Source of the DNA: Geothrix limicola
GTDB lineage: Bacteria; Acidobacteriota; Holophagae; Holophagales; Holophagaceae
Direction of reading: 5' to 3'
NCBI RefSeq assembly: GCF_030268085.1
Contig: NZ_BSDE01000005.1
Location: 62,001-126,000, forward strand
DNA: 64,000 nt
A program made the position numbers and the translations under genes. The notes under the pieces were generated by a model. The model searched no databases and was not told where the DNA came from. It saw nothing but the letters and a program-made list of their open reading frames with translations. Shown in pieces: positions 3,640 through 32,899 of the stretch (positions are counted from its first letter, which is position 1; the number at the start of each line of letters is the position of its first letter).

Positions 3640-4635
3640 TTAGCCGAAAACCGTCCTAGACACGATCGCCTCGGACACGCGCTCCGGCAGCAGCTCTTCC
3701 ATGCACTGCCGCCGCTGGCAATCCCGTTCCCGGCAGGGCGAGCAGGAGATCCCCGTGCGCAGGACCCGGCCCGCCTCCGGGGGCAATCCCGCGATCACGG
3801 GATCGCTGGCGCCGTAGAGCCCCAGGGCCGGAACCCCCAGCACCACAGCCAGGTGGAGAAGCCCGGTATCCGGAGAGACCACCCGGTCGGCCTGGCGGAC
3901 GGCCGAGGCCAGCTGCCAGAAGCCCAGCCGCGGGAGGGCCGCGACACCGGTGGCCTCCGGCAACCAACTCCGCAGATCTTCTTCCTCGGGGCCGAGGGAC
4001 CACCGCAGGTCGCAGCGCTGTTTCAAAAGGCCCGCCAGGGTGATCCAGTGCCGCAGGGGCCAGCGCTTGATGGCACCTCGCCTCGAAGCGCCGGGGACCA
4101 GCACCACCCGGGGTTTCGCATCCTGCTGCCAGATCTCGCCGGGATCGGGAAGCGCCACGTCCTTCAGCACGGGCCGGAAGCGCCCGAGCCCCGGGATGCC
4201 CCGGCTGCGGCCGAAGGCCTCCGCCAGGCCCAGAGCCTGGTCGTACCGCGTCTGATGGCGGAAGGCCATGGGATGGGTCTGGAGCGATCCTGCGAACTCC
4301 TTGGTCACTCCGTCGCCCCAGCGTTCGGGGAGGGCCGCCAGCTTCGGGATGAGGGCCGCCTTGAGGATGCCGTGGAAGTCCAGGCTGGCCTCGGCGCCGC
4401 GCACCAGGGCGGCCACCCGCTTGAGTTCGCTGAAGGCCGAAAAGGGCGAGGACAGGCGCTTGCGCCGCACCACCACGGGCTCCAGCCAGGGCAGTGGCTC
4501 CAGCAGGAAGGCGTGGCGATCCTCGACCACGGCCCGGAAGCGCGCCTGCGGGAAGGCCTGGCGAAGGTTGGCCCAGGCCGGCATGACCCGGAGGATGTCA
4601 CCGAGGGCGGAGAGACGGAGCAGAACCAGATCCAT
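3640..4635 (-). CDS. glycosyltransferase family 9 (heptosyltransferase-like)
   Basis: A 331-residue enzyme of the ADP-heptose:LPS heptosyltransferase family. The N-terminus MDLVLLRLSALGDILRVMPA is the classic GT9 opening with the Ser/Gly-Asp acceptor-side motif. The C-terminal half carries VLVPGASRRGAIKRWP, and VSPDTGLLHLAVVLGVPALG is the nucleotide-sugar binding signature. It probably adds a heptose or related sugar to the lipopolysaccharide core on the cytoplasmic face of the inner membrane. The Cys-rich tail (SCSPCRERDCQRRQC) is unusual. AGGA lies 7 bases before the ATG. The gene diverges from the acyltransferase gene with about 30 bases between reading frames. Confidence 0.88.
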   Translation of the reverse strand: MDLVLLRLSALGDILRVMPAWANLRQAFPQARFRAVVEDRHAFLLEPLPWLEPVVVRRKRLSSPFSAFSELKRVAALVRGAEASLDFHGILKAALIPKLAALPERWGDGVTKEFAGSLQTHPMAFRHQTRYDQALGLAEAFGRSRGIPGLGRFRPVLKDVALPDPGEIWQQDAKPRVVLVPGASRRGAIKRWPLRHWITLAGLLKQRCDLRWSLGPEEEDLRSWLPEATGVAALPRLGFWQLASAVRQADRVVSPDTGLLHLAVVLGVPALGLYGASDPVIAGLPPEAGRVLRTGISCSPCRERDCQRRQCMEELLPERVSEAIVSRTVFG

Positions 4636-4664
4636 CCCTCCATCCTATTCGTTACGCTGGTGGC

Positions 4665-4742
4665 ATGAGCATGAAGCAGAAGCGAATGGCCACTTTGGCG
4701 AAGCCGAAGCCCGAAGGGCGCGACACAGAAGGTGCCGCGTGA
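4665..4742 (+). CDS. possible 25-codon leader peptide
   Basis: An ATG at 4665 opens a short frame (MSMKQKRMATLAKPKPEGRD, then TEGAA) whose TGA stop overlaps the GTG start of the following acyltransferase. The peptide is basic and rich in Lys and Pro. The arrangement suggests translational coupling, but the frame could be chance and no homologue can be tested here. Confidence 0.25.
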   Translation: MSMKQKRMATLAKPKPEGRDTEGAA

Positions 4743-5560
4743 ATTCTTTCGCCAAAGACCAGTCCAAGAACCCGCCGCCGACGAACTGGCTGGACCGCTT
4801 GCTCCGCCGGTTTTCGAGGGTGGCCTACGGACTGGCGGTGCTCCTGATGTACACCCTCGCCTCCACGGCCCTCGGGCTGGCCCTGGCCCCGGCCCTTTGG
4901 ATCTGGTCGGGCCTCCACGGCCTGGCCGCCAGCCTCCACGGACCCTGGCCCTGGATCCTGTCGGGCTTCGCGCTGGCCCTCTCCTTTTTCATCTTCGGGC
5001 TGGTGCTGCTGCTGGTGGTGCCCATCTACAACTGGGTGCTGCCCACGCGCGTGAAACCATTCAAGGGCGGCTACTACACCCTGCACGCCCTGCCCTGGTT
5101 CCTGCACAACGGCCTCTTCTACCTTGTGCGCTTCACCTTCCTGCCCTTCGTGACCCTCACGCCCTTCGGGGTCTGGTTCCTGAAGGCCATGGGCATGAAG
5201 ATCGGCCGCCACGCCTTCATCAACACGGAATACATCAGCGATCCACAGCTCATCAGCATCGGGGATGACGCGGCCCTGGGTGGCAGCGTGCGCATCTTCG
5301 CCCACTACGGGGGCGGCGGCAACCTGGTCATCGCCCCGGTCACGGTGGGCAACCGGGCCACCCTGGGCCTCGCCTGCTGCGTCATGGGGGACGTCATCAT
5401 CGGCGATGACGCCACCATTCTCCCGGAAAGCGTGCTGCTGCCGGGGAGCCGGGTGGGGGCGGGGGAGACCTGGGGCGGGGTCCCCGCGCGCCGGATCGAG
5501 CGTGAGGAGATGGAACGCATCAAAAACGAAATCCGGGGCATGAGCGAAACTCTGGGGTGA
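4739..5560 (+). CDS. membrane-anchored hexapeptide-repeat acyltransferase
   Basis: The product is 273 residues from a GTG at 4739. The N-terminal half has two strong membrane segments at about residues 28-58 and 72-100, plus a further hydrophobic stretch (FYLVRFTFLPFVTLTPFGVW). The C-terminal half is a left-handed beta helix of hexapeptide repeats (LISIGDDAALGG, LVIAPVTVGNRATLG, VIIGDDATILPESVLLPGSRVG) ending in GVPARRIER, the usual end of LbetaH acetyl/acyltransferases. It probably transfers an acetyl or acyl group to an envelope sugar or peptide precursor at the membrane; the substrate is unknown. No ATG fits this frame nearby. The last 31 codons are duplicated 177 bases downstream. Confidence 0.75.
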   Translation: MNSFAKDQSKNPPPTNWLDRLLRRFSRVAYGLAVLLMYTLASTALGLALAPALWIWSGLHGLAASLHGPWPWILSGFALALSFFIFGLVLLLVVPIYNWVLPTRVKPFKGGYYTLHALPWFLHNGLFYLVRFTFLPFVTLTPFGVWFLKAMGMKIGRHAFINTEYISDPQLISIGDDAALGGSVRIFAHYGGGGNLVIAPVTVGNRATLGLACCVMGDVIIGDDATILPESVLLPGSRVGAGETWGGVPARRIEREEMERIKNEIRGMSETLG

Positions 5561-14448: not shown

Positions 14449-16188
14449 CTAGGGCTTGGGCTTCGCCATCTGAAGGCTGAAGGAAGCCCAGCTTCCGTCC
14501 ACATTCACCTGGGTTTCACCCTTCAGGCCCGAGCCCTCGTCTTCCACGCGAACCACCAGCGGGCCCGTCTTCGGGGCCTTCATCCGCACATTGGGTTGGG
14601 ATTCTTCCCAGGACCCAGCCTTCGAGGAGGCATCGCCCCCCTGCTCACCGATCCGAATAGAGGCACCGGGTCCAGGCTGCCCGCCGGGCTGGAGGTCCAC
14701 TTTCAGAGGTCCGCGGCGACTGACGCGAAGATGAACCATCAGATCCTCACCCACGCGGCGGATAACGCCCTGGACTTCGCCTTCCGCCAAGGGCACCTCG
14801 GGCTGCACGGCCTTCGCCTTCAGCACGTCCATCACGAGGGCACGGTAGTGGATCGCCTCTTCGGTGATGCGCCCCTCGTCCAGGGCCTTCTCGCCGCAAT
14901 TGTAGGCGGCCACGGCCTTGGTGAGGTCACCCTGGTAGTGGTCGAGGAGGAAGCGCAGGTACTTCGCGCCCGCGGCCATGACCTGGGCGGGATCACCCAG
15001 ATCCTTGGCGCCGTAGGCCCGGGCGGTCTCGGGCATGACCTGGAGCAGGCCCATGGCGCCGAGCGGGCTCTTGGCCTTGGCGTAGAAGCCGCTCTCCACC
15101 CAGGCCATGCTGCGAAGCAGCTGGGGATCGAGCCCTTCCTTCACTGCGAGGGCATCCACCTGGGCCACGAGGGCCGCGGGCGCGGGAATGGACGTCTGGG
15201 CAGGCAGGGCCGCCTGCAGGGCCAGGGCCGCGCCTGGAACCAGCAGCAGGGAAAAGAGGCTCCAGGGCGCGCCGACTCTGGGCCGGGGCGATAACAGTCG
15301 TTCGATACGGTGCAGCAAGTGTCCTCCTCGGGCCGCGTGGGCCGGGAACAGGCTTCGTTGGAAAGACGGCTGGAGATCGTCCAGCGCGTTGAGGGCCAGG
15401 GCCAGGCGCCGCGGATCGCCCAGGCTCTGAGCCGCCAGATCATCCGCCAGCTCTTCGCGTTCGGCGCGGATCCTCGCCGAGAGCCACCAGATGGCCGGAT
15501 GGAAAAACAACAGGGTTTCAAGAAGTCCCTGGAGCAGGTTGAAGAGGAAGTCCTGGCGGCGCACGTGGGCCAGCTCGTGGGCCAGCAGAGCTTCCAGGTA
15601 GGCCGGAGGGAGGCTGGTGAGCAAGGTCGCCGGCAGGATCACCACGGGCTTCCAGAAGCCCATCGCCAGGGGCGTGTCGCCCCATTCGCCGAGCAGGAGC
15701 CGCACCTTCCGCCCCAGGCCCATGGCGCAGGCCAACTGCTCCAGCCTCTGCTGCCAGGCCTCCGGTGCGGTCCTCCCCTGCCGCCTCCAGCGAAGGCTGA
15801 GGGCGAAACCACCACCCAGGCGCAGGGCCATGCAGGAAGCCCCGACCGCCCAGATCATCACCAGCTGCGCCAGGTGGGGCTGCAGGGCGGCTTCCAGCCT
15901 TGGCAGCCAGGGCGCGGACGAGGCTGGCCCCGCGGGCCCACGGGGCACGGTTCCTGAAACCGGATCCGCCAGGGCCACCAACCGGGCTTCCAGCGGGACG
16001 GGACGGTGGAACTGCCAGCCCGTGAGGCCGGGCAGGACGAGGCAGAGACCCAGGACGAGGCCATGCATCCGGTGGCGGAGGCCGAGGGGCAGGAATGGAC
16101 CACATCCGGCGGCCAGAAGCACCAGCAGGGCGGCCTGCCAGGCAGCGTGGACCAGGGTCCAGCCCAGGACCTGAACCAGGGCGCTCAT
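14449..16188 (-). CDS. M56 (BlaR1/MecR1-like) membrane metallopeptidase fused to a lytic transglycosylase domain
   Basis: The product has 579 residues. The N-terminal half is an M56 integral membrane protease: hydrophobic segments at about 1-55, 105-130 and 310-330, the zinc motif HELAH near residue 205, and AEREELADD with a further zinc-site Glu. The C-terminal half is not a penicillin-binding sensor as in BlaR1. It is a soluble-transglycosylase-like domain (about 335-450) with catalytic Glu in AWVESGF, then SPLGAMGLLQVMPETARAYG and AVAAYNCGE, followed by a beta-rich tail. It follows the BlaI-type gene with a 4-base overlap. The inference is a sensor that reads peptidoglycan state and triggers repressor cleavage. 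Confidence 0.85.
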   Translation of the reverse strand: MSALVQVLGWTLVHAAWQAALLVLLAAGCGPFLPLGLRHRMHGLVLGLCLVLPGLTGWQFHRPVPLEARLVALADPVSGTVPRGPAGPASSAPWLPRLEAALQPHLAQLVMIWAVGASCMALRLGGGFALSLRWRRQGRTAPEAWQQRLEQLACAMGLGRKVRLLLGEWGDTPLAMGFWKPVVILPATLLTSLPPAYLEALLAHELAHVRRQDFLFNLLQGLLETLLFFHPAIWWLSARIRAEREELADDLAAQSLGDPRRLALALNALDDLQPSFQRSLFPAHAARGGHLLHRIERLLSPRPRVGAPWSLFSLLLVPGAALALQAALPAQTSIPAPAALVAQVDALAVKEGLDPQLLRSMAWVESGFYAKAKSPLGAMGLLQVMPETARAYGAKDLGDPAQVMAAGAKYLRFLLDHYQGDLTKAVAAYNCGEKALDEGRITEEAIHYRALVMDVLKAKAVQPEVPLAEGEVQGVIRRVGEDLMVHLRVSRRGPLKVDLQPGGQPGPGASIRIGEQGGDASSKAGSWEESQPNVRMKAPKTGPLVVRVEDEGSGLKGETQVNVDGSWASFSLQMAKPKP

Positions 16189-16559
16189 CCCTTCTCCTTG
16201 CCAAGGGCTGCGAGAATGCGGGCCTTCTCCTTGGGGCTCACCCGGCCCGAGCGGAGCGCGGCCAGCACGAGGGCGGCCGCCGATCCGCCGAAGAGGCGCT
16301 CGGTGAGGTCGGCGACCAGGCCGCCCTCCATGGCCGCACGGCTGGGAACGGCCGCGTAGACATGGCTGCGCTGGCTTTCATCACGGGTCACGAGGCCCTT
16401 CTCCAGCATCACCTGCAGCATGCGGAGGACGCCCGTGTAGGCGTACGCCTCCCGCAAGTTCAGCTGGGCGTGCACCTCCTTCACCGAGGCGGGGCCCAGT
16501 TCCCAGAGGATCTGGAGGAATTTCAGTTCCACTTCGGTGGGCTTGACGGGACGCGGCAT
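16185..16559 (-). CDS. BlaI/MecI-family transcriptional repressor
   Basis: A 124-residue winged-helix repressor. MPRPVKPTEVELKFLQILWE is the typical start of the Penicillinase_R family, followed by SVKEVHAQLNLREAYAYTGV (helix-turn-helix) and MLQVMLEKGLVTRDESQRSH (wing). The C-terminal part (about 80-124) is the dimerisation region that the partner M56 protease cleaves in known systems. The stop codon overlaps the start of the M56 gene by 4 bases, so the two are translationally coupled. Just upstream, a promoter with TTGACA at -35 is overlapped by two 16-base operators, so the pair is probably autorepressed. Confidence 0.92.
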   Translation of the reverse strand: MPRPVKPTEVELKFLQILWELGPASVKEVHAQLNLREAYAYTGVLRMLQVMLEKGLVTRDESQRSHVYAAVPSRAAMEGGLVADLTERLFGGSAAALVLAALRSGRVSPKEKARILAALGKEKG

Positions 16560-16567
16560 GGGAATCC

Positions 16568-16597
16568 TACACAAGATGGTGTAGACAATTTTGTGTA
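16568..16597. promoter_or_regulatory. two overlapping BlaI-type operators
   Basis: 16568-16583 reads TACACAAGATGGTGTA and 16582-16597 reads TAGACAATTTTGTGTA. Both have TA(C/G)AC-N6-GTGTA arms and share two bases. Known BlaI/MecI operators have TACA/TGTA arms. They overlap the -10 region and start point of the repressor operon. Confidence 0.75.
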
Positions 16598-16615
16598 ATA
16601 AGCCGCGAATGTCAA
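16587..16615 (-). promoter_or_regulatory. promoter of the BlaI/M56 operon
   Basis: On the minus strand a perfect -35 TTGACA (16615-16610) is followed after 17 bases by AAAATT (16592-16587), a weak -10. The start point would fall inside the operator pair. Confidence 0.55.
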
Positions 16616-16620
16616 CCGCG

Positions 16621-16644
16621 AAAAGGGCACCCCTAGAGGTGCCC
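16621..16644 (-). terminator. terminator of the malic enzyme gene
   Basis: Read on the minus strand, a 7-bp GGGCACC stem with a 6-nt loop is followed directly by TTTT. It lies about 130 bases beyond the malic enzyme stop. The stretch between stop and hairpin shows only one further imperfect hairpin (near 16698-16722). Confidence 0.6.
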
Positions 16645-16774
16645 AAGGTCTCGGCCTCACCGATACGGGCCGGAAGGGGCTGGCGAAAACGGTCGCCCCG
16701 TGGGAGGAAAGAGAAACTCTTCCCACCCCCAGGCTAGGCGTCGGACCTGCGCCTTCAAGTGAAAAAAGGACGAA

Positions 16775-32776: not shown

Positions 32777-32899
<123 letters not shown>

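Follow-up and report, generated by a model that had tools for sequence, protein, structure and literature searches.

What a BlaR1-type membrane protease responds to when a lytic transglycosylase domain occupies the place of the penicillin-binding sensor, and which genes it might then control, is the question raised by a locus in a 64,000-nucleotide stretch of the Geothrix limicola genome (contig NZ_BSDE01000005.1; the window hereafter, to which coordinates refer unless stated otherwise). BlaR1 and MecR1 have been studied almost entirely as drug-resistance sensors; many M56/BlaI pairs carry a different C-terminal part, and for few of these is the signal known. The initial annotation took positions 14449-16559 as an M56 sensor protease fused to a lytic transglycosylase domain, with a BlaI repressor, a span that comprises the fusion gene and blaI, with the operators considered below (16568-16597) falling just outside it.

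Protease and transglycosylase domains in one reading frame

The fusion gene (14449..16188, minus strand) is a single uninterrupted ORF of 579 aa within which both domains are found, Pfam Peptidase_M56 matching residues 106-250 (89.1 bits, cut-off 31) and Pfam SLT residues 347-437 (79 bits, cut-off 21.3). A scan of bacterial genomes yielded, from Geothrix strains and MAGs, 12 near-full-length fusions of 62-65% identity and one partial one. A frameshift or sequencing join between two separate genes, which the initial annotation saw as fatal to its proposal, is excluded by the clean frame and because 12 other Geothrix-type loci, several of them from named strains, hold the fusion end to end. With the neighboring ORF at 16185-16559 (minus strand) belonging to the Penicillinase_R/BlaI family, both the fusion and its repressor partner are borne out, and the architecture of M56 protease, SLT lytic transglycosylase domain and BlaI is close to certain.

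The domain search and structure prediction that had been called for support the fusion and a BlaR1-like topology. In an AlphaFold2 model built on a 39-row alignment (mean pLDDT 87.8, pTM 0.59), residues 1-306 (15271..16188, minus strand) form three N-terminal transmembrane helices, a re-entrant helix and a gluzincin core, and residues 8-292 superpose on BlaR1 (8ext/8exs) with Z 19.7 over 240-250 residues at an rmsd of 3.3-4.2 (VIA-align). The protease motifs H204-E205-x-x-H208 and E245-x-x-x-D249 are kept, the former as an invariant HELAH at residues 204-208 (15565..15579, minus strand; BlaR1 H201-H205) and the latter, which supplies the third zinc ligand (15442..15456, minus strand; BlaR1 E242xxxD246), in 39/39 fusions; H204, E205, H208, D213, E245 and D249 are invariant among those aligned. 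The numbering offset of +3 from S. aureus BlaR1 agrees with the ligands H201, H205 and E242 given for that protein (PMC9834060). A fourth transmembrane helix, TM4, follows at residues 309-327 (15208..15264, minus strand; Kyte-Doolittle hydropathy peak 310-328), and positive stretches after TM1 and TM3, as expected of cytoplasmic segments, are consistent with the BlaR1 topology. Given TM4, the SLT and following domains are placed in the periplasm, and the protein is predicted to span the inner membrane, the zinc protease being on the cytoplasmic side and the transglycosylase and beta-sandwich domains on the other.

Occupying the position of the BlaR1 penicillin-binding sensor, after TM4, is the SLT domain (residues 334-460; 14809..15189, minus strand). 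In the same model residues 331-463 match family-1 lytic transglycosylases (Slt70, LtgA, MltF, MltC and MltE) with Z 13-17 over ~130 residues at an rmsd of ~2.2. The Glu-Ser, GLLQ and AYNxG motifs place it, together with the domain match itself, among the SLT-type lytic transglycosylases (PF01464). Loss of catalytic residues on alignment would have spoken against a functional fusion; they are kept, as E365-S366, G377-x-x-G-[LM]-LQVMP and AYN-C-G, with Glu-Ser and YNxG in 39/39 fusion proteins checked and with E365, S366, Q383, P386, Y429, N430 and G432 invariant among those aligned. The codon for Glu365, which aligns with the catalytic Glu of lytic transglycosylases, is at 15094..15096 (minus strand). 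Slt70, LtgA, MltF and MltE are free or anchored to the outer membrane, whereas this domain, for all its likeness to them in fold and catalytic motifs, is fused to a signaling protease. The remaining residues, 461-579 (14452..14808, minus strand), are modeled as a nine-stranded Ig-like beta-sandwich (pLDDT ~81-89), to which Foldseek gives weak matches among Ig-like sandwiches (best E 2.6e-3).

How far this makes the protein a BlaR1 depends on the breadth of the definition. With an M56 domain above cut-off, a blaI in the same operon, a HEXXH...ExxxD site and the four-helix BlaR1 fold, it belongs to the BlaI-M56 (BlaR1-like) systems in the broad sense, and shares with BlaR1/BlaI and MecR1/MecI of S. 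aureus and B. licheniformis (PMC9834060) the gene pair, the operators at the blaI promoter, the gluzincin site, the transmembrane/protease fold and the periplasmic C-terminal sensor position. In the narrow sense it does not belong. The NCBIfam blaR1_generic model gives 44.3 bits against a cut-off of 400, the match being confined to the M56 part, and Pfam, AlphaFold2 and structure search find no class-D beta-lactamase-like penicillin-binding domain at the C-terminus, SLT and the beta-sandwich being there instead. Further, BlaR1 Tyr261, which lies beside the zinc site, is near strictly conserved and is required for induction in B. licheniformis (PMC9834060), whereas the equivalent here is Leu264, invariant in Geothrix, a change that could alter control of the protease.

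Operators at blaI and at a deacetylase gene

The blaI gene (16185..16559, minus strand) overlaps the fusion gene by 4 nt and encodes a winged-helix repressor of 124 aa (Pfam Penicillinase_R 80.9 bits, cut-off 22.6). On its 5′ side and the same strand are a -35 box, TTGACA (16610..16615), and then two adjoining 16-mers (16568-16597), O1, TACACAAAATTGTCTA (16582..16597), over the predicted -10, and O2, TACACCATCTTGTGTA (16568..16583), a perfect TACAC-N6-GTGTA. Together they make a double operator (TACACAA..TTGTnTA) that lies across part of the blaI promoter. Both 16-mers are kept in all Geothrix loci that reach that far, and the -35 box is kept through the Geothrix alignment, with most of the surrounding spacer having diverged. 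Among same-genus fusion genomes the operator, O1 included, is present in 20/21 (Geothrix fermentans DSM 14018 carries the fusion and the double operator), the exception, G033, being one whose contig begins 6 nt before the gene. Wherever the contig allows, blaI is directly upstream of the fusion gene, apart from one insertion, in a Geothrix MAG (L016, ~4240-4930), of an A+T-rich gene whose small product looks secreted; no third gene is seen in the operon in the window. From the conservation of these sites BlaI, presumably as a dimer, very probably controls its own operon.

The spacer that separates blaI from the malic enzyme gene also contains a strongly conserved structured element (16613-16734, minus strand), composed of a GGGAAGAG..CTCTTTCC hairpin, a GGGGCGACCGTTnnCGCCAGCCCC hairpin, GGCC..GGCCGAGAC and a GGGCACC..GGGTGCCC-TTTT terminator. 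It occurs as a single copy in 37/47 same-genus genomes, fusion-free ones included, and matches no Rfam family (the only Rfam match in the window is a tRNA gene at 32778-32851, plus strand). Covariation is weak because the sequence hardly varies, and the element is a candidate orphan small RNA.

The initial annotation reckoned that the regulon need not be a beta-lactamase, and proposed that other copies of the operator be sought. The regulon as given here is based on operator pattern scans, exact for TACACAANNTNRTNTA in 47 same-genus genomes and with one mismatch allowed in 21 fusion genomes. The exact scan gave 44 matches, all of them at blaI or at one particular polysaccharide deacetylase gene, bar one stray in a fusion-free genome; the reversed control gave 4. 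The extra operator, present in five genomes, is always directly upstream of that same gene; allowing a mismatch added a sixth such site (G056) and otherwise returned only blaI promoters. In the source genome the second site is TACACAAACTTGTATA (G000:C3:655193-655208), 24 nt before the start codon of a gene outside the window (G000:C3 654236-655168). No operator match lies near a beta-lactamase, and a beta-lactamase regulon is rejected; the expectation of another kind of regulon is thus upheld, with a second, secreted-enzyme target in six genomes.

The product of the source-genome gene, 311 aa, has an N-terminal signal-like stretch and the motifs TFDDGP, NHTVTH and LLHH of CE4 enzymes, of which it is a member by PF01522 (60.8 bits, cut-off 23.1). 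Its best PDB matches are peptidoglycan GlcNAc deacetylases of the PgdA type, with the NCBIfam PgdA equivalog model giving 48.2 bits against a cut-off of 400. The substrate is not fixed by this, since CE4 enzymes act on several polysaccharides; action on peptidoglycan is reasonably likely. Orthologs (at least 73% identity) are present in 6/47 same-genus genomes, in 6/6 cases with the fusion and in 6/6 with the operator, a co-occurrence with the fusion of hypergeometric p ~0.005. On this pattern, control of the deacetylase by BlaI is highly probable wherever its promoter has the operator. In the other 15/21 same-genus fusion genomes the ortholog is missing and the one-mismatch scan finds no other operator, therefore the output there must be either that same operon or genes under weaker sites.

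In genus g6 a deacetylase ortholog (70-76%) is the divergent neighbor of blaI-M56 at four loci (one each in G064 and G065 and two in G066), where deacetylase and blaI share intergenic operators. SLT is seen whole in G064 and at the first G066 locus; in G065 and at the second G066 locus the stretch or contig ends inside the M56 gene, with the protein match still reaching SLT (residues 4-396/397). The G066 genome thus has two copies (L247 and L256) of the divergent module. In G063, also of g6, the ortholog (62%) is on a different contig from blaI-M56, and its promoter has an operator of the g6 and not the Geothrix type, the common word of 13 nt, TTTATCGTACATT, being reached in 1/500 shuffles; the operator has changed together at the two places. 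(The longest-common-word test is uninformative for G000, G019 and G056, whose operator halves differ, and those cases are carried by the pattern search.) No operator is found at the deacetylase orthologs of three fusion-free genomes, G059, G060 and G062. In genera g7-g9, which have no ortholog of the 60-75% class, the operator search returns mostly blaI promoters and one weak match (L244), and deacetylase relatives at 49-51% in G073 and G077 are without a recognizable operator. A locus in the latter genome (L230; G077:C1:3492500-3500500) has tandem blaI-M56 operons, the first with SLT and the second without, and with differing operators.

Control of these sites by paralogous BlaI proteins was considered and rejected, cross-talk being unlikely because the two other blaI genes of the source genome sit behind a different operator, TACGAA..TTCGTA. 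The M56-TonB/BlaI pairs of this genome and genus have the blaI-M56 operon in common with the fusion system and differ from it in lacking SLT and in their operator; the paralogous M56 proteins of the source genome have non-enzymatic C-termini (TonB-like; coiled and Pro-rich). In several genomes of Geothrix the operon of such a pair also holds a related deacetylase gene. Six other genomes of the genus (L190, L191, L192, L193, L194 and L195) show, on one strand, the gene row deacetylase (~46% identity), in some a ~400-aa protein, blaI and M56, with a switch of this other type, and pairing of an M56 switch with a deacetylase is therefore recurrent.

Distribution and origin of the fusion

Within the class, of which 93 genomes were surveyed, the fusion is present in 21/47 same-genus genomes (20 full-length, 1 partial) and also in other genera of the family, Holophagaceae. 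Elsewhere M56-SLT fusions are found in G376 and G299, both Acidobacteriota, and in a Polyangia MAG (L058), each beside a blaI-like gene, and in trees of both the SLT part and the M56 part these three stand apart from the Holophagaceae fusions. An M56 tree in which all fusions are held as one clade is rejected at p-AU 0.0025, a value to be read with the long branches in mind and with the constrained group having been chosen after the matches were seen. A single origin of all M56-SLT fusions is rejected on that basis and, with due caution, recurrent fusion is the simplest reading of the trees. Pelomonas sp. CA6 has an M56 protein (L057:4656-6506) whose C-terminus, judged by eye only, resembles a serine D-Ala-D-Ala peptidase (SxxK-like SISKLMTALV) and may put a wall enzyme of another kind in the place of the sensor.

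What the switch may sense

The reading favored here, to which we give a probability of roughly 0.6, is of a BlaR1/BlaI-type switch with a lytic transglycosylase domain in place of the penicillin-binding sensor, derepressing a wall deacetylase in a manner reminiscent of SigV/RsiV. BlaI would sit on the two adjoining operators over its own promoter and, in genomes that have the secreted polysaccharide deacetylase, on the promoter of that gene as well. The transglycosylase domain, probably the sensor, would bind or turn over glycan strands or muropeptides, or its substrate would change during wall damage, and the signal would pass through TM4 to the zinc protease. By homology to BlaR1, which directly cuts BlaI once its sensor is occupied (PMC9834060), the protease would then cut BlaI, allowing expression of the blaI-fusion operon and the deacetylase. 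Wall glycan stripped of N-acetyl groups would be poorly attacked by lysozyme-like and lytic enzymes, and this would close a feedback loop. The initial proposal, that sensing or cutting of peptidoglycan by SLT sets off the cleavage of BlaI, fits everything seen, and we infer a domain that reads wall glycan or muropeptides and a deacetylase that hardens the wall; that the whole serves as wall-damage feedback is an even bet. PgdA-type deacetylation does shield wall glycan from lysozyme, and SigV induces it in response to lysozyme (PMC5608400, PMC4183432). If the inference holds, the likeness to SigV/RsiV is one of regulated proteolysis upon a wall-lytic threat, with outputs there that include peptidoglycan deacetylase (pgdA, pdaV); unlike the fusion and BlaI, SigV/RsiV are a sigma and anti-sigma factor, RsiV binding lysozyme itself, are described in Gram-positives and have no homology to the present proteins (PMC4183432, PMC5608400).

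The invariance of the catalytic residues in all fusions could also be expected of an effector, i.e. a membrane-anchored lytic transglycosylase that remodels peptidoglycan and is kept at its level by BlaI autoregulation, with M56 tuning expression. The operon being the only detectable target in 15/21 same-genus fusion genomes, and the existence in the family of stand-alone SLT proteins homologous to the fusion's domain, are in keeping with that. It is nevertheless unlikely: SLT replaces the sensor, after TM4 and beside blaI, in an arrangement that arose more than once, and a self-contained enzyme would have no need of a further operator in front of a gene for polysaccharide modification. Another reading has SLT just tie the sensor to the sacculus, with a different signal such as a beta-lactam or membrane stress being read by the transmembrane part or the beta-sandwich. 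The M56 paralogs of this genome, with their non-enzymatic C-termini, do imply that M56 signaling can do without an enzyme at that end, yet with catalytic and binding motifs alike fully conserved, and no serine beta-lactamase/PBP domain detected by Pfam in the fusion protein, the chance of this being correct is slight.

A different doubt concerns the polymer. Both ligand and output could be another GlcNAc polymer, chitin oligomers or an exopolysaccharide, bound by the SLT/GH23-like fold and modified by the deacetylase, as the fold is also that of GH23-type chitinases (3w6b-3w6f, Z 13.6-14.1) and CE4 includes chitin and NodB deacetylases. Against this, the sequence likeness is to peptidoglycan enzymes (SLT Pfam, NCBIfam murein transglycosylase models and T7 gp16 peptidoglycan transglycosylase) and the best PDB matches of the deacetylase are PgdA-type, making it quite improbable. 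Returning to the wall-glycan switch, a bolder form can be entertained. Transglycosylases use the N-acetyl group of MurNAc in catalysis, so strands from which a MurNAc deacetylase had removed it would no longer be cleavable, and the loop could be closed in this way; deacetylation of GlcNAc would chiefly counter enzymes of the lysozyme type. The domain might be a catalysis-coupled sensor, an active transglycosylase reading the cleavability of, or damage to, the cell's own peptidoglycan, with BlaI proteolysis switching on an N-deacetylase that leaves the glycan uncleavable. Diderm bacteria would then have a closed homeostatic loop made out of the parts of beta-lactam resistance, and would have put its sensor fusion together independently on more than one occasion. 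In this full form it is a doubtful, though tentatively offered, extension.

Searches of an open-access literature collection found no report of M56/BlaR1 with a transglycosylase domain, or of BlaI with a polysaccharide deacetylase, a result that does not extend to subscription journals, where a prior description may exist. The present analysis adds a likely regulon that is conserved and has co-evolved, along with evidence for repeated fusion. In place of the beta-lactamase or PBP2a of BlaR1/MecR1, and of their class-D-type penicillin-binding domain, comparative genomics gives one M56/BlaI pair a likely target gene, for a polysaccharide deacetylase, and a plausible ligand class, wall glycan, which would be seen by a lytic transglycosylase domain with its Ig-like sandwich. 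Whether a wall hydrolase domain can be the receptor for repressor proteolysis becomes a directly testable question in culturable, non-pathogenic Geothrix, related strains of which also carry the deacetylase.
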